NCBI GenBank assembly: GCA_017409205.1
Contig: JAFQTF010000012.1
Span: 1-57,542 of the forward strand
Length of the DNA: 57,542 bases
Source: Oscillospiraceae bacterium
Lineage (GTDB): Bacteria; Bacillota; Clostridia; Oscillospirales; Oscillospiraceae
Direction: 5' to 3'
Positions within the stretch are counted from its first letter, which is position 1. The number at the start of each line of letters is the position of its first letter. Made by a program: the position numbers and the translations under genes. The notes below the pieces were generated by a model. That model saw only the letters and a list, made by a program, of their open reading frames with translations, made no database searches and was not told the DNA's origin. Of this stretch, positions 5,305 to 55,863 are shown piece by piece.

Positions 5305-7692
5305 TTACAGTTTTTTCAATCCCATCACGCACTTGAGTACGTTCTTTGCCATCAGCTGCAGCTCACCAAGGGTGATGCCGTCCTCTTTTTTATAGGTGGC
5401 CAGCAGGCTGCCGTCAGGGGTACGTTTGGGATCCGCAAAGCTGCGGGCGCCGGGCATCAGCACATCCACCCGGGAGCGGACCCGGTAGGCATTGTCCTTC
5501 AGCCGGGGGAATTCCGGACTGGCGGCATACTGCATCCACCAGTCGGTGATGACGCAGCCCTCAAAGCCCCATTCGTCCCGGAGGATGGTCTTTACCAGCT
5601 CATAATGATAGTGGCCCCAGACACCGTTGATCTGGTTGTAGCTGGTCATGATGGTTTTGGGGGCAGCCTCCTTGACGCAGATCTCAAAGCCCCGGAGATA
5701 GATCTCCCGCAGAGCACGCTCCGAGAGGATGCTGTCGTTTTTATTCCGGTTGGTCTCCTGATTGTTGCAGGCAAAATGCTTGGGGCAGGCAGCTACACCG
5801 GCAGACTGGATGCCCCGGACATAGGCGGCAGCGATCCGGCCAGTGAGGAGGGGATCCTCGGAGAAGTATTCAAAGTTCCGCCCGCAGAGGGGATTGCGGT
5901 GGATGTTCATGCCCGGCGCCAGCAGCACATCGCTGCCCCGGTCCACCATTTCCCGTCCAAGGCTGGCACAAAGTTCTTCCACCAGCTCTGTATCAAAGGT
6001 GGAAGCCAGAGCGGTGCCGATGGGCATCAGGGAGCAGGAATCATACAGCCGGATGCCGGAGGGACCATCGGTGGTGGTGATGGGAGGGATCCCTTTGGCC
6101 CGGAGAGATTCGGTGACACCGCCGAAAATACCGGCGTTTCCCTTGGCACCCAGAGGGTGGTTCATGATATAGCCGCCCCGGGACAGGGCTTCCATTTCCT
6201 CAGTGCTGAGCTGGGCGACAAAGGCGTCCAGTGTGGCTCTTCCTTCCTGCACATCCTTCAGCTTCAGACCCCGGTCACCGGTGATGAACAGTTCCTCCGG
6301 CAGAGCGTCCAGAATGATCTGCTTCAGATCGGTGGTTTTGGTGGAAGCGGTGCGCTCCGTGGGGCTGCCATTCTGGTTAACAAGGACAGGGAAGGGCCGG
6401 ACGGGTGCGGCTGCTTCCGACAGCCGGGCCACGATCAGCAGCTGCTCCACCTGAAGCGTGCCCACATGGACTGCATCCCGGACATTTTCGCCCAGATAGA
6501 ACCGGTAATCACCGGGCTGGATCACATAGCTGGATTTGTTGCCGGTGATGCCGCTGTCATCGTAGGAACTGATCTGATAGGCGGAACATTCCAGCGTTAG
6601 GCTCTGGGTATCTCCAGGAGCCAGCTCCCGGGTCTTGGCGAAGGCCACCAGTTCCCGGGCGGGATTGCCAAGGACACCGCAGGGCTTCTCTACAAACAGC
6701 ATCAGGGTGTCCTTGCCGGAACGGCTGCCGGTATTGGTGACGCTGACCTGATAGATCAGTGGATCCTGAGAGTCCACTTCGGTGTGAAAGGTAGTGTAGG
6801 AAAGACCGTAGCCAAAGGGATAGAGTACCTTCTCTTTGCCGAAGGACTCAAACCAGCGGTAGCCTACATAGATGTCTTCCCGGTATTCGTTGGCATTTTT
6901 GTCGCCGAAGCAGCCGGAGGACGGATAGTCTTCATAATTCCGGGCGATGGTGTCGGTCAGGCGGCCCGAGGGAGTGACCCGGCCCAGCAGCAGATCCACG
7001 GCAGCATTGCCGCTTTCCATGCCGCCTTGCCACAGGATCAGCACTGCGCCCAGGCTGTATTCCTCCAGGAAGGAAAGATCCATTACCGCACCGATGTTCA
7101 GCAGCAGTATGGCATCAGGGAAGGCGGCGGTGACTTGCCGGAGCATTTCCTTTTCCTCTTCTGTCAGATAAAAGCTGCCGGGCGCCAGAGCAGCTTCCCG
7201 GTCCTCGCCGGAGGAGCGGCCGATGACGATGACGGCCTGATCGGAATGTTTCCGGGTCTGCCGCACCAGCTCCGGTGTGACTGCCATTTCCGGATGGCTC
7301 CGGGGCCATTTGCCCCAGACACCGTGGTTGACAGGATTCTCCACGCAGTACCGTTCGTAGGTCTGAGCCAGCGCTTCGTTGATATGGATCCCGTCACAGC
7401 TGCGAAGGGCTTCCAGCAGATTCACGATATATGGGGTGTTCACATCGCCGCCGGAGCCATAGCCCGTGGCGAACCAGTCGATCTGCACCCGTCCGAAAAC
7501 GGATATCCTGGTGCCGGATTCCAGCGGCAGCACCTGGTTTTTCAGCAGCACAGCACCCTGGGCTGCCACACTGCGCAGCAGCTCCGGCATACCGGGGGTG
7601 ATGATCTTATCCGGGTTGTGATGGGCTTCGCTCTGGGCCAGGGTATTGATAACAGCAGAGCCTGTTTTGGCGATTTTCTTTAGAAAATTCAT
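5305..7692 (-). CDS. GH3 beta-glycosidase with swapped domain order
   Basis: A 795-residue glycoside hydrolase family 3 enzyme. The usual order is reversed: the alpha/beta sandwich domain comes first (about 30-250, with 'RISVFGRV' and the acid/base-type Glu near 163 in 'SSGEDRE'). A fibronectin-III-like domain follows (about 310-400). The TIM barrel is last (about 510-770), with 'GPSGIRL', 'KHFACNNQE' and the nucleophile Asp near 717 in 'CVITDWWM'. This permuted order is known from ruminal clostridial beta-glucosidases. No signal peptide is visible, so it probably acts on imported sugars in the cytoplasm together with the symporter downstream. Beta-glucosidase is the likeliest activity; others occur in the family. 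Confidence 0.92.
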   Translation of the reverse strand: MNFLKKIAKTGSAVINTLAQSEAHHNPDKIITPGMPELLRSVAAQGAVLLKNQVLPLESGTRISVFGRVQIDWFATGYGSGGDVNTPYIVNLLEALRSCDGIHINEALAQTYERYCVENPVNHGVWGKWPRSHPEMAVTPELVRQTRKHSDQAVIVIGRSSGEDREAALAPGSFYLTEEEKEMLRQVTAAFPDAILLLNIGAVMDLSFLEEYSLGAVLILWQGGMESGNAAVDLLLGRVTPSGRLTDTIARNYEDYPSSGCFGDKNANEYREDIYVGYRWFESFGKEKVLYPFGYGLSYTTFHTEVDSQDPLIYQVSVTNTGSRSGKDTLMLFVEKPCGVLGNPARELVAFAKTRELAPGDTQSLTLECSAYQISSYDDSGITGNKSSYVIQPGDYRFYLGENVRDAVHVGTLQVEQLLIVARLSEAAAPVRPFPVLVNQNGSPTERTASTKTTDLKQIILDALPEELFITGDRGLKLKDVQEGRATLDAFVAQLSTEEMEALSRGGYIMNHPLGAKGNAGIFGGVTESLRAKGIPPITTTDGPSGIRLYDSCSLMPIGTALASTFDTELVEELCASLGREMVDRGSDVLLAPGMNIHRNPLCGRNFEYFSEDPLLTGRIAAAYVRGIQSAGVAACPKHFACNNQETNRNKNDSILSERALREIYLRGFEICVKEAAPKTIMTSYNQINGVWGHYHYELVKTILRDEWGFEGCVITDWWMQYAASPEFPRLKDNAYRVRSRVDVLMPGARSFADPKRTPDGSLLATYKKEDGITLGELQLMAKNVLKCVMGLKKL

Positions 7693-14762: not shown

Positions 14763-16229
14763 ATGGCAAATGCAGCTTTTGACAATGATAAATACCTTCA
14801 GACCCAGTCTGCTCATATCCGGGAGCGCATCGATGCTTTCGGCGGCAAGCTGTATCTGGAATTCGGCGGCAAGCTCTATGATGATAACCATGCATCCCGT
14901 GTGCTGCCCGGCTTCCAGCCCGACAGCAAGCTGCGTATGCTGCTGCAGCTGAAGGATCAGGTGGAGATGGTCATTGCCATCAATGCCGATGACATTGAAA
15001 AGAATAAAATCCGGGGTGATCTGGGCATCACCTATGACCGGGACGTGATCCGGCTCATCGATGTGTTCCGGGGCTTCGGCCTGTATGTGTCCAGCGTGGT
15101 GCTGACCCGGTTCCAGGGCCGTGCGCTGGCAAGAGCTTTCCAGTCCCGTCTGGAGGGTATGGGCATCAAAGTCTACCATCACTATGACATTGCCGGCTAT
15201 CCCAATGACACTGCCCACATCGTCAGCCCTGAGGGTTTCGGAAGGAATGACTATATCGAGACGACCCGCTCTCTGGTGGTGGTTACGGCCCCCGGTCCCG
15301 GCAGCGGTAAGCTGGCCACCTGTCTGAGCCAGCTGTACCATGAGCATATCCGGGGCAATACCGCAGGCTATGCCAAGTTTGAGACTTTCCCCATCTGGAA
15401 TCTTTCCATCAATCATCCGGTGAACCTGGCATATGAGGCAGCCACCGCCGACCTGAACGATGTGAATATGATCGATCCCTTCCATCTGGATGCCTACGGT
15501 GTCACCACCGTCAACTATAACCGGGACGTGGAGGCGTATCCCGTTCTGGTGGCTATCTTTGAGAAGATCCTGGGCGAGTGCCCCTACAAGTCTCCCACGG
15601 ATATGGGCGTCAACATGGTGGGCAATTGCATCGTGGATGACGAGGCAGCCCGGTACGCTTCCCGTCAGGAGATCCTCCGCCGGTATTATGTGGCCCTGTG
15701 CGATCTGAAGCAGGGTAAGGGCCGGGAGGAAACGGTCCGGAAGCTGGAACTGCTGATGAAGAAGGCCAATGTGGAAGCCAGCGAGCGGAAGGTGGTGGCT
15801 CCGGCTCTGGCCCGGGCAGAGGAGACTGCCGATGCGGCTGCGGCCATAGAGCTGCCCGATGGTACCATCGTCACCGGTCGCACCACTGATCTGCTGGGTG
15901 CGTCCTCTGCGCTGCTGCTGAATGCCCTGAAGAAGCTGGCAGGCCTGCCGGACGAACTGCACATGATCTCTCCCGTGGTACTGGATCCTATCCAGCATCT
16001 GAAGGTGGATCATCTGGGCAACCGGAATCCCCGGCTCCACACCGATGAGACTTTGATTGCGCTGTCTATCTGCGCAGCCACCAACCCCATGGCAGAAATG
16101 GCTATGCAGCAGCTGGGCAAGCTCCGGGGCTGCGATGTCCACTCCACGGTGATCCTGTCTCAGGTGGATGAGCGCACCTTCAAGCGGCTGGGCTGCAACC
16201 TGACCTGCGAGCCCCGGTACGCAGGCTAA
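14763..16229 (+). CDS. DUF1846 / UPF0371 family protein
   Basis: 488 residues, the full length of the UPF0371 family. The start 'FDNDKYLQTQSAHIRERI' and the segment 'FGGKLYDDNHASRVLPGF' are diagnostic. Family members are homohexameric proteins of unknown biological role, with an N-terminal nucleotide-binding-like domain; 'VVTAPGPGSGKLATCLSQ' (about 178-195) looks like a phosphate-binding loop. Start ATG at 14763 behind GGGATGGA. Codon use is strongly biased, suggesting good expression. The DDAH-like gene follows after a hairpin at 16242-16268. Confidence 0.9.
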   Translation: MANAAFDNDKYLQTQSAHIRERIDAFGGKLYLEFGGKLYDDNHASRVLPGFQPDSKLRMLLQLKDQVEMVIAINADDIEKNKIRGDLGITYDRDVIRLIDVFRGFGLYVSSVVLTRFQGRALARAFQSRLEGMGIKVYHHYDIAGYPNDTAHIVSPEGFGRNDYIETTRSLVVVTAPGPGSGKLATCLSQLYHEHIRGNTAGYAKFETFPIWNLSINHPVNLAYEAATADLNDVNMIDPFHLDAYGVTTVNYNRDVEAYPVLVAIFEKILGECPYKSPTDMGVNMVGNCIVDDEAARYASRQEILRRYYVALCDLKQGKGREETVRKLELLMKKANVEASERKVVAPALARAEETADAAAAIELPDGTIVTGRTTDLLGASSALLLNALKKLAGLPDELHMISPVVLDPIQHLKVDHLGNRNPRLHTDETLIALSICAATNPMAEMAMQQLGKLRGCDVHSTVILSQVDERTFKRLGCNLTCEPRYAG

Positions 16230-53685: not shown

Positions 53686-53714
53686 TTGATTTTTTCCCTG
53701 GCATGGTGTATAAT
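53686..53714 (+). promoter_or_regulatory. Promoter of the disrupted tRNA-Pro gene
   Basis: TTGATT (53686-53691), 17-base spacer, TATAAT (53709-53714), 14 bases before the tRNA 5' end. It should still fire into the inserted element. Confidence 0.75.
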
Positions 53715-53727
53715 ACGTTTTCAGTAT

Positions 53728-53767
53728 CCGGGTGTAGCGCAGCTGGTAGCGCGCCTGCTTTGGGAGC
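53728..53767 (+). pseudogene. 5' half of tRNA-Pro(TGG), cut after the anticodon loop
   Basis: Acceptor 5' strand CCGGGTG (53728-53734), D arm GCGC..GCGC (53737-53752), anticodon stem CCTGC (53754-53758) and loop TTTGGGA with anticodon TGG (53761-53763) are normal. After GC (53766-53767) the expected AGG of the stem, the variable loop, T arm (TTCGA) and acceptor 3' strand are all absent. This is the left junction of an insertion, probably at the anticodon arm. The right half should lie beyond the window. Confidence 0.7.
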
Positions 53768-53836
53768 CGAGCGACCCGATGTTCCCGGAAAAAACCGCAA
53801 TCCGAAAAACCGTTGCGGCTCTAGCACTTTTCTCCC

Positions 53837-53865
53837 TTGACTTTTCAAAAACTGCGGTCTAAAAT
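53837..53865 (+). promoter_or_regulatory. Promoter of the element-borne tRNA-Pro
   Basis: TTGACT (53837-53842), 17-base spacer, TAAAAT (53860-53865), about 50 bases before the tRNA. Confidence 0.65.
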
Positions 53866-53869
53866 GGCT

Positions 53870-53892
53870 TTTGACCACATGTTTGACCACAT
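53870..53892 (+). repeat. Direct repeat TTTGACCACAT x2
   Basis: Two copies, 53870-53880 and 53882-53892, 12 bases apart, near the left junction. Direct repeats next to an attachment site are typical of arm-type binding sites for tyrosine integrases (inference). Confidence 0.5.
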
Positions 53893-53915
53893 CTGAAAAA
53901 TCTTTAACTGAATAT

Positions 53916-53992
53916 CCGGGCTTAGCGAAGTTTGGTATCGCGCTTGATTTGGGTTCAAGAGACCGTGGGTTCAAGTCCCGCAGCCCGGACCA
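53916..53992 (+). tRNA. tRNA-Pro(TGG), complete, element-borne
   Basis: A full cloverleaf: acceptor CCGGGCT/AGCCCGG, D stem GCGA/TCGC, anticodon stem CTTGA/TCAAG with loop TTTGGGT (anticodon TGG at 53950-53952), variable AGACC, T stem GTGGG/CCCGC with loop TTCAAGT, discriminator A and an encoded CCA at 53990-53992. It differs at many positions from the broken chromosomal copy 190 bases upstream, so it is not a simple duplication. It probably replaces the disrupted gene. Confidence 0.93.
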
Positions 53993-53993
53993 G

Positions 53994-54032
53994 AACGCAC
54001 CAGTTTTCATTCTGAAAACTGGTGCGTTTTCT
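53994..54032 (+). terminator. Terminator after tRNA-Pro
   Basis: A 15-bp stem AACGCACCAGTTTTC (53994-54008) with its complement at 54014-54028, then TTTTCTT. Confidence 0.9.
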
Positions 54033-54183: not shown

Positions 54184-55863
54184 ATGTCAAATTCTACATC
54201 AACCCAAGATCCTGCCATTTTCAATACAGCGCAAGAAGAAAAAATTCAGAAACTATTTTCCGCTGAATTGAAAAAGCATACTGACAAGGCCTATAAAAAT
54301 ACAACAATTATTGTATCTACATGTATTGTCATAACCCTTATGGTTGTTGTTTTCAGTATGCTCTATATGGCACAGTTAAAAAGCAGTATGATTATCGATA
54401 TTAAGGAAGCTGTGAAAAACATTAGTTCTTCCACCGCTGAAACAACAATCCACAGAGATTCCGCTGCTCCTTCTAATGCCATTACAGAACACTCTGTTTC
54501 CGTTGAATTAGAAAGCGCCAATCTTCTCAGTGCCGATTATCTTGCCATAGTTCTCTCTATTATAATCTCTCTTGCTGGTGCTTATGTTGTTTTTTTAGGC
54601 ATGAATCGCTTGAAAATGTACGATGAAAGAATTGATAGCAATCGTTCCGATCTGCTAAAAGAGCTTAATACAATGGTTATTAATCAGGTTTCTGCTGGTC
54701 AGGCACAACAACTCGATTCTTTCAAAGCCAAATTTGACAGTAACATCTCAGACTTTAATGACTCTGTCGCAACCGCCAAGAATGAGCTTGACATTCTTAA
54801 GCAAAAGCATCTGGATGATATTGAGCAAGCTGGTTCAGGTTTTAATTGGCTTAAAGCAACACTTGAGAACAAAGATATAGATTTAAACCTTCAAACTGTC
54901 TCCGACTCCCATAAACTTGTAGAGAAATTACACAATGAACGGCCTAAGAACTATATTGCTCAAATACAAGAAGTTGTACGGCGAGTGTGCGATTATACAC
55001 TATCTGGCGATGTTGCAGATTATCATAATCTTTCTGCCGAACTCGCTCGCGGAAATATGTATAAGGAAGCTATCGATGTTTTGAAAAAGGGTACAAACTT
55101 GTTCCCCAAAGATGCTGATTTGCTTGCTGATATAATTCAGTATGCTACCAAATGTGGTATGCTTGAAGAAGCCAAGGCTGCATATATTGACCTTAATGAT
55201 GAAAGTGTTAAGAAATCGTGGTCTTGGCGCGGGTATAGCTTCACCAGTGATTACTATCGGGCACAAGGTGATTATGAAAAAGCACTAAAAATGTGCAATG
55301 AAGCAATAGAGGTCTTCCCTAACGACGAACATGCATATCACGACAAAGCGGAACTCCTTAGAATTATTCATAGGAATCAAGCAGGCATTGATGAGAGCAT
55401 TAAAACATTACAAGAAGCGCTTGACCGCAATATCAATTGTCCTGCATGCGCTTTGATGCTTGGCCTTACTTATGCCGATGCTGGCCAGTATGTTGCTGCA
55501 ATTAATTGCTATAATAGAGCAATTCAGGAACTCGCTCAAGACCAGCCGCATACTTCTGATGCTGTTGTCTTTTTCAATCGAGCCATATGTTATGATCGTA
55601 TTTTCATGCAAAGCAATCATTCTAATTCGACTAAATTGGATTTTGCAATTCAGGCTTTCAAGGACTATCGAGTAGCATTAGCATTGGGAGAATTAGGTGA
55701 TTTCAGTATAGTAAACCAGCAACAAGCAATTCATCGCCTAACTATCCTAAGTCAGTATATTCCTGCCAATATTCTAAAGCAGTTTGAATCTGATTCGGAC
55801 ACTGCCGAACAGAAAAAGCTACCAAAAACCTTCTTTAAGCAACTATTCAAATCATCAAGATAA
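54184..55863 (+). CDS. Membrane-anchored coiled-coil/TPR protein, element cargo
   Basis: 559 residues from ATG 54184 with GGAAGGGAG. Two hydrophobic helices (about 41-62 and 118-140) bracket a polar, Ser/Thr-rich loop (63-117). A helical, coiled-coil-like stretch (about 145-235) and several TPR-like units follow (about 290-510: 'AELARGNMYKEAIDVLKKG', 'YYRAQGDYEKALKMCNEAIE', 'YADAGQYVAAINCYNRAIQE'). The gene is much more AT-rich than the chromosome, with different codon use, pointing to transfer. It has no recognisable enzyme domain. As the only visible cargo of an integrative element it may be a scaffold in defence or signalling; function unknown. Confidence 0.85.
   Translation: MSNSTSTQDPAIFNTAQEEKIQKLFSAELKKHTDKAYKNTTIIVSTCIVITLMVVVFSMLYMAQLKSSMIIDIKEAVKNISSSTAETTIHRDSAAPSNAITEHSVSVELESANLLSADYLAIVLSIIISLAGAYVVFLGMNRLKMYDERIDSNRSDLLKELNTMVINQVSAGQAQQLDSFKAKFDSNISDFNDSVATAKNELDILKQKHLDDIEQAGSGFNWLKATLENKDIDLNLQTVSDSHKLVEKLHNERPKNYIAQIQEVVRRVCDYTLSGDVADYHNLSAELARGNMYKEAIDVLKKGTNLFPKDADLLADIIQYATKCGMLEEAKAAYIDLNDESVKKSWSWRGYSFTSDYYRAQGDYEKALKMCNEAIEVFPNDEHAYHDKAELLRIIHRNQAGIDESIKTLQEALDRNINCPACALMLGLTYADAGQYVAAINCYNRAIQELAQDQPHTSDAVVFFNRAICYDRIFMQSNHSNSTKLDFAIQAFKDYRVALALGELGDFSIVNQQQAIHRLTILSQYIPANILKQFESDSDTAEQKKLPKTFFKQLFKSSR

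Follow-up and report, generated by a model that had tools for sequence, protein, structure and literature searches.

The closest precedent for the locus described here is the tRNA-dependent lysogeny of actinobacteriophages, established by experiment for mycobacteriophages by Guerrero-Bustamante and Hatfull in 2024 (PMC10865867); the available portion of that paper also suggests a wider occurrence. A further case cited there, the Lj965 prophage of Lactobacillus johnsonii, resembles our locus in that, as reported there, its tRNA gene is not rebuilt and a cognate tRNA is encoded, and differs in being a prophage and a single case. Prophages residing in tRNA genes without tRNA-dependent lysogeny are described in the accessible part of PMC12429752. 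Among the matches listed in a search of the open-licence literature, there was no report of such a system in Oscillospiraceae, nor of the serial replacement of substitute tRNAs. Here we consider a stretch of 57,542 nucleotides from an Oscillospiraceae bacterium (hereafter the window) which, judging from its sequence, very probably contains the left end of a tRNA-replacing island: an element lodged in a tRNA-Pro(UGG) gene, carrying the substitute tRNA in its left attachment (att) arm and belonging to a kind whose members elsewhere stack serially.

The window is an entire contig (C57) of an assembly of 1.76 Mb in 62 contigs, 76.6% complete and with 29 tRNA matches. On its forward strand, positions 53728-53767 (CCGGGTGTAGCGCAGCTGGTAGCGCGCCTGC TTTGGGAGC) hold the opening 40 nt of a native tRNA-Pro(UGG) gene, which breaks off shortly after its anticodon loop. 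The intact tRNA-Pro(TGG) of a relative (genome G117, locus L194) agrees with it at all 40 of 40 nt and over 10 nt of leader, and the match to the native gene stops after TTTGGGAGC, 3 nt beyond the core TTTGGG (53759-53764) that lies inside the broken 5' part and forms the left junction (attL). The broken gene retains a native-type promoter, TTGATT-17-TATAAT (53686-53714, forward strand), similar to those before intact tRNA-Pro(TGG) genes of relatives and taken from a promoter scan that returned three promoter-like sites against 1.0 expected. No 3' half follows: neither ARAGORN nor Rfam calls a tRNA at 53728-53767, and each finds one tRNA in the window, at 53916-53992. The initial annotation, which had described a chromosomal tRNA-Pro ending after its anticodon loop with no restoring 3' half, is upheld on both points.

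The one tRNA called is a complete tRNA-Pro(UGG) of 77 nt with encoded CCA and a TTTGGG target of its own (53916-53992, forward strand), scoring 64.4 bits in Rfam over 53916-53989. The left end runs from the core through about 113 bp to paired TGACCACA repeats and on to this tRNA. In the window, the left att arm itself (53765-53869, forward strand), with the motif CCGTTGCGGCTCTAGCAC, is largely common to most of eight aligned relatives, and the paired repeats TTTGACCACATGTTTGACCACA (53870-53891, forward strand), 113 bp from the core, are putative arm-type integrase sites, similar repeats standing before the right core of relatives. A promoter-like site for this tRNA, TTGACT-17-TAAAAT (53837-53865, forward strand), was recovered by both the promoter scan and the alignment. 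Immediately downstream of the tRNA, a terminator-like hairpin (53993-54029, forward strand) comprises 17 bp and then a T-rich tail, with a folding energy of -25.1 kcal/mol and a shuffle z of -9.5; a simple terminator scan does not list it. These features substantiate the earlier description of an intact, divergent tRNA-Pro(TGG) with its own promoter and terminator. A possible second recombinase site is a motif like GTTGYGGCTCTA, found both at about 53810-53826 in the window's left arm and ahead of the first integrase gene in L103, L107, L108 and L214.

In the substitute, the 3' half (anticodon stem TCAAG, acceptor AGCCCGG) is complementary to the 5' half of the same gene but not to the broken half (CCTGC, CCGGGTG). 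Hence, the second tRNA is a different, complete gene rather than the first tRNA rebuilt. Because tRNAs of the same type exist in the genus as stand-alone genes (G006, G070, G022:C66 and G042), the substitute is, by its sequence, of a relative's type and neither exotic nor foreign. Beyond it lie a cargo gene (54184-55863, forward strand) for a 559-aa TPR protein whose N-terminal part, as read from the sequence, contains hydrophobic segments, and a tyrosine integrase gene (PF00589; 56178-57542, reverse strand), which faces the tRNA, is linked to the attachment site and is open at the contig end. The contig stops at 57542, before the right end of the element; the right junction therefore falls outside the window, and the tRNA 3' half sought near a right end is absent from this contig.

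In the mechanism that we propose, the island would insert by tyrosine-integrase recombination at a core of 6-9 bp (TTTGGG...) in the anticodon loop of the host tRNA-Pro(UGG). Such a core would be too short to rebuild the gene, leaving the 5' half at the left junction, with the 3' half expected at the right junction beyond the contig. Integration would be made survivable by a whole tRNA of the same isotype, furnished with promoter and terminator and placed in the left att arm beside the integrase arm sites. The unchanged anticodon loop of the substitute would in turn become the target of the next island; since that loop is kept, islands would stack, each breaking the tRNA of its predecessor and bringing another. 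What can be read directly from sequence is the break, the substitute, the fixed end layout and the linked integrase, together with, in relatives, the right ends, one element with both of its ends, the stacks and the single UGG copies of six near-complete genomes. Integrase specificity, the function of the arm sites, expression of the substitute and its necessity for survival are all four steps that we infer.

The arrangement of half, spacer and whole tRNA recurs in many relatives, and is thus not a product of chance. A half is separated from the tRNA that follows it by 70-71 or 171-255 bp, most often by 188-189 bp. A left-end query matches 27 of 136 genus genomes at E <= 1e-22, with 22 matches spanning part of the left arm and five covering only tRNA or terminator sequence, and the left end is common to the genus and other genera of the family. 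Among 56 distinct genus loci, defined as UGG loci with at least 400 nt upstream that match the search expression, 23 have a half with nearby arm repeats, 28 have neither, five have an arm without a recognisable half, and none has a half without an arm (Fisher p 6e-11, a value that is only indicative, the loci being related and fetched by similarity). One further locus, L284, lies outside the search expression and was read by eye. Counted from the first base of the left core, the TGACCAC repeats begin at 113 bp in most loci and at 111-121 bp in others. Conservation across nine aligned left ends, of which the G044 row begins within the arm, is highest in the repeats and the tRNA. The claim that the element brings a whole substitute instead of a homologous 3' piece is supported by this recurrence of half and whole tRNA.

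Several loci depart from the common layout. L206 and L207 (G133, G039) possess a different left-end family, with the tRNA loop CTTGGG behind a TTTGGG half. In L201 and L202 (G124, G125), the half and core are separated by only 31 nt from another tRNA copy without a promoter of its own, and steps of 70-71 bp divide tRNA copies in L274, L276 and L277; a shorter left arm may account for both. The tRNA-Pro copies of L186, L188 and L190 have small hairpin-rich inserts of roughly 140 bp within or close to the D-loop region. In L076, L080 and L087, the last 22 or so nt of tRNA-Pro, plus a hairpin, recur at least some 130 bp downstream, perhaps as traces left at the tRNA 3' end by a different type of insertion. 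The element left end near position 4590 of L103 (G058:C4) lies in sequence not recognisable as tRNA, and is possibly at a secondary site. Additionally, three contigs (G030:C47, G077:C66 and G106:C49) stop within 80 bases of a substitute or intact tRNA, as would be expected if strains in the samples carry different elements or copies.

The linkage to one integrase family extends well beyond the window. Six element loci of the genus (L103, L107, L108, L111, L188 and L214) encode integrases with 78-96% identity to that of the window across 429 residues or more, and a seventh, L184, encodes one with 61%. A second integrase adjoins in L103, L107, L108, L111, L214 and L184, and the L188 contig stops within the gene. 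No integrase match was found beyond the tRNA in L105/L106 (G085, over 34 kb) or L114 (G092:C19, over 11 kb), which indicates that some substitute tRNAs may outlive their own element. Across the family, integrase matches at E <= 1e-70 are present in 60 of 300 genomes and 31 of 106 genera. Twenty regions around integrase homologues were fetched, 19 of them in other genera: 14 contain a tRNA-Pro(UGG), and in every one of these at least one broken 5' half lies upstream when read by eye. Two more have right relics only (L278, L283), one adjoins an intact tRNA-Val (L288), and two have neither tRNA nor relic (L272, L279). L286 has, around 6656-6901, a broken tRNA-Ala(CGC) half, 170 bp, a whole tRNA-Ala(CGC) and a related integrase, with the left side only represented.

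The same family is also found in the restoring mode. In G262:C1 (about 1561594-1586842; L301, L312), a homologue of 55% identity lies beside an intact tRNA-Pro(CGG) with no broken half upstream, and a lone 3' half 25 kb away is identical to that of the intact gene, with a GACCA repeat 133 bp before its core. By these features, the G262 element belongs to the canonical mode, with its tRNA-Pro(CGG) made whole again at the left end; both modes thus occur within a single integrase family. An ARAGORN tRNA call on one G262 broken half joined to the left arm was taken as false.

The missing right junction can be approached through relatives. A search for core plus 3' half in the 136 genus genomes gave matches in 60, and the contexts fetched from among these were then read. 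Lone 3' halves right behind a core number seven within the genus (L177, L182, L184, L189, L192, L198 and L208) and six outside it (G208, G400, G259, G198, L278 and L283), and a human-gut scaffold, MT835887.1, supplies the fourteenth; this count leaves out a substitute-type 3' half without TTTGGG core in G019:C32 and a decayed one in G071:C16. A single or paired GACCA repeat precedes the core by 118-134 bp in 13 of the 14 right relics, L283 being the sole one without it, and two relics have mutated cores (TTTAGG in L177, TTTTGG in L189). Unpaired right relics alone prove little, because the integrase family works in both restoring and replacing modes and canonical islands would leave such relics too.

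Elements with both ends are more telling. In MT835887.1 (L336), a tRNA-Pro(CGG) is split at TTCGGG, with the left core at 2304, the right core at 15539 and 13,235 bp between them; ARAGORN calls the joined flanks as tRNA-Pro(CGG) and finds no tRNA at either end alone. A right junction of the kind that the initial annotation had looked for is thereby present on the same scaffold as its left partner in a relative, and joining the flanks rebuilds the tRNA. A tRNA-Pro(UGG) likewise results in G208 when the innermost half is joined to a 3' relic lying 35 kb away. Pairs of innermost half and relic were available in eight genomes: the anticodon stems match in four (G208, G400, G119 and G092, the last with weaker acceptor pairs) and are mismatched in the other four (G044, G040, G259 and G198). 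On the mismatched pairs, ARAGORN reports tRNA-Pro(TGG) in G044 and G198, no isotype in G259 and Gln in G040, where the core is mutated; by itself the program is a weak test of pairing, and in G119 it also accepts the outer, non-matching half. The mismatches would reflect later losses between cores in stacks. No end overlap of 20-199 nt, as looked for in a circular form, occurs in any of seven GenBank scaffolds. The tRNA-Pro carried by L336 (2466-2542) is of the same isotype as the broken target and has another anticodon, AGG vs CGG, and this substitute is without the TTCGGG target.

An alternative explanation would confine the mobile unit to the 188-bp stretch from core to core, which would bring a promoter and a new 5' half and reuse the old 3' half. 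The available part of the Islander paper lists 159 such cases, the 'island with 5' tDNA fragment', among 3919 islands (PMC4383910), and stacked halves lying 70-71 or 171-255 bp apart with no integrase between them, as well as the 31-nt interval between core and whole tRNA in L201 and L202, are in keeping with so small an insert. In the window, however, the 3' half of the second tRNA fails to pair with the broken 5' half in both the anticodon and acceptor stems, and an integrase and cargo lie beyond it; moreover, the partner of the half is 13.2 kb away in MT835887.1 and 35 kb away in G208, and the joined flanks form a tRNA. Stem pairing led us to reject the small insert for the window, and the distant partner halves to reject it for MT835887.1 and G208; we consider it very unlikely as an explanation.

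Tandem tRNA copies and tRNA pseudogenes are common, and some of the halves are visibly decaying, as would be seen if a tandem tRNA-Pro copy had become a pseudogene cut at the anticodon, with the nearby integrase a coincidence. Such decay is difficult to reconcile with breaks that all fall at one core, with arm repeats at a fixed distance at both ends, with partner 3' halves at distant right ends and with linkage to one integrase family. Indeed, the single scaffold with both element ends, MT835887.1, contradicts it, and we regard it as extremely improbable. Hardly any weight attaches either to the idea that the halves are still used, as a split tRNA joined in trans or with the 5' half as a small RNA, and that the second tRNA is accessory: the 5' half of the window is intact behind a native-type promoter and several right relics keep terminator-like hairpins, but the second tRNA is complete and scores well, the cores of L177 and L189 are mutated and stems are mismatched in four of the eight pairs.

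Integration of a tRNA-replacing island thus stands as the preferred reading, and the contents of its relatives bear on what kind of element this is. PADLOC and Pfam identify SIR2-pAgo in G058:C4 and RT type VI and Fic in G044; in G208, hsdRMS, pPIWI-RE-associated genes and helicases lie between both ends, and the MT835887.1 cargo includes a MobL relaxase. PADLOC gave no match for the 559-aa protein of the window, for five MT835887.1 proteins or for an 800-aa protein of G119. A type I restriction gene in L107 was left out of the cargo, as it lies beyond the integrases and no right end was found there. 'Defence island' is therefore a description that fits several members and not all. Phage structural genes were absent among the element proteins scanned, which are a subset of the ORFs, the window element being cut off. 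A phage origin was entertained and set aside: the substitute tRNA pattern has no match in viral contigs, none of ten viral-contig matches to the left-end pattern lies beside a tRNA half, and the one integrase relative is weak (25%). In the GenBank phage collection, integrase matches at E <= 1e-30 come from nine records, five of them unverified human-gut scaffolds and four Brevibacillus phage records, and plasmids gave one integrase match, at 39.5%.

Stacks are apparent in several places. Two halves stand in tandem in four genus loci under the strict expression (L083, L088, L170 and L195), and three in L270, L274, L276 and L282 of other genera; a further triple stack occurs on the human-gut scaffold MT839022.1, where a different left end comes after the outermost half. 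The natural reading would be serial insertion, with the TTTGGG-bearing tRNA of each element broken by the next. Direct support comes from L054, where a half of substitute type is itself followed by another left end.

An empty site offers a complementary view of the same event. Many genus members have an intact gene without a broken half, which answers this part of the initial annotation in general terms, but none was found with the window's own glsA flank: glsA (E <= 1e-60) is present in three of the 136 genus genomes, and the two others have no tRNA in the flanks fetched. A 95% identical gene in G117 lies ~7.5 kb from the intact tRNA of that genome, in an arrangement unlike the window, and was not accepted as an empty site.

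tRNA-Pro(UGG) is needed in bacteria. In the window genome (76.6% complete), no other tRNA-Pro was called and no other core-plus-3'-half was found. The copy count proposed at the outset gave a divided answer. The element's tRNA is the sole intact tRNA-Pro(UGG) found in six near-complete genomes (G126, whose completeness is given as 100%, G085, G208, G400, G259 and G198), under two queries, one for the divergent tRNA type, which can miss native-type genes, and one for core plus 3' half, both of which other variants could escape. A CGG gene is present in all six, and a GGG gene was found in G126, G085, G400 and G259, the four that the search covered. Multiple intact UGG genes are present in five further genomes (three in G005; two each in G022, G044, G058 and G262), one of those in G044 having a native-type promoter and no half. 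Replacement is, therefore, not always strictly necessary. We infer that the host of the window element would depend on the substitute. As long as neither relic half is damaged, precise excision should undo such dependence; in L177 and L189, with their mutated cores, this route back to the native gene has probably been lost.

It is tempting to take the argument one step further. On a broader reading, which we judge about evenly balanced between holding and failing, the presumably essential tRNA-Pro(UGG) of this family would be recurrently the property of islands that often carry defence genes. The substitute would be both the price of entry, as integration without it should kill, and the next landing pad; successive islands would swap each other's tRNA, and once either relic half had decayed there would be no return to the native gene. 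If this is true, such a ratchet would keep an essential tRNA gene turning over and anchor the cargo. Apart from that reading, the loci show one way for mobile DNA to replace a probably essential tRNA gene again and again, the relic halves recording past insertions in legible form. Furthermore, the occurrence of both modes in one integrase family opens the switch between restoring and replacing to study, and tools that presume restoration of the tRNA at a junction would overlook such islands or misplace their ends.

Measured against known systems, the islands share several traits with canonical tDNA islands as set out in the available part of the Islander paper (PMC4383910): a tyrosine integrase, a tRNA target, an anticodon-centred class of crossover and tandem arrays. 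In canonical islands, as in the G262 element, one junction carries a restored gene; the left junction of the window has none, nor has either junction of L336. Archaeal integrases such as IntSSV1 also cross over at the tRNA anticodon loop; in the accessible portion of PMC8371274, an intact tRNA gene is reconstituted afterwards, unlike in the window.

The likeness to tRNA-dependent lysogeny is closer. What is available of PMC10865867 describes a tyrosine integrase with arm-type sites, an attB in a tRNA gene, a carried tRNA of the same isotype, a core of 8-17 bp with the tRNA rebuilt at neither junction, and related integrases in both modes, as here, in addition to secondary attB sites. Our loci likewise have a linked tyrosine integrase and predicted arm-type sites flanking the core; L336 has no tRNA at either junction, and the window has none at the left junction, the only one visible. 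Temperate phages are where the two part: the elements of that paper are phages of Actinobacteria that target tRNA-Lys, -Ile2 or -Leu, whereas those described here are islands of Oscillospiraceae-type bacteria, among whose scanned proteins defence functions and one MobL relaxase take the place of phage structural ones. They usually have two tandem integrases and target tRNA-Pro(UGG), tRNA-Pro(CGG) or tRNA-Ala(CGC). The tRNA of Fionnbharth, as presented in the same source, shares sequence with gene 37, which is on the other strand; in our loci the tRNA lies in the att arm. The islands also stack serially into the substitute tRNA, for which the available part of PMC10865867 holds no description. 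The host group, the islands with defence genes in place of phages, the tRNA-Pro and tRNA-Ala targets, the position of the tRNA in the att arm and the stacks were not encountered among the open-licence papers listed and so are possibly new; they would extend the principle of tRNA-dependent integration described in 2024 from actinophages to gut-bacterial islands, several of which carry defence cargo.
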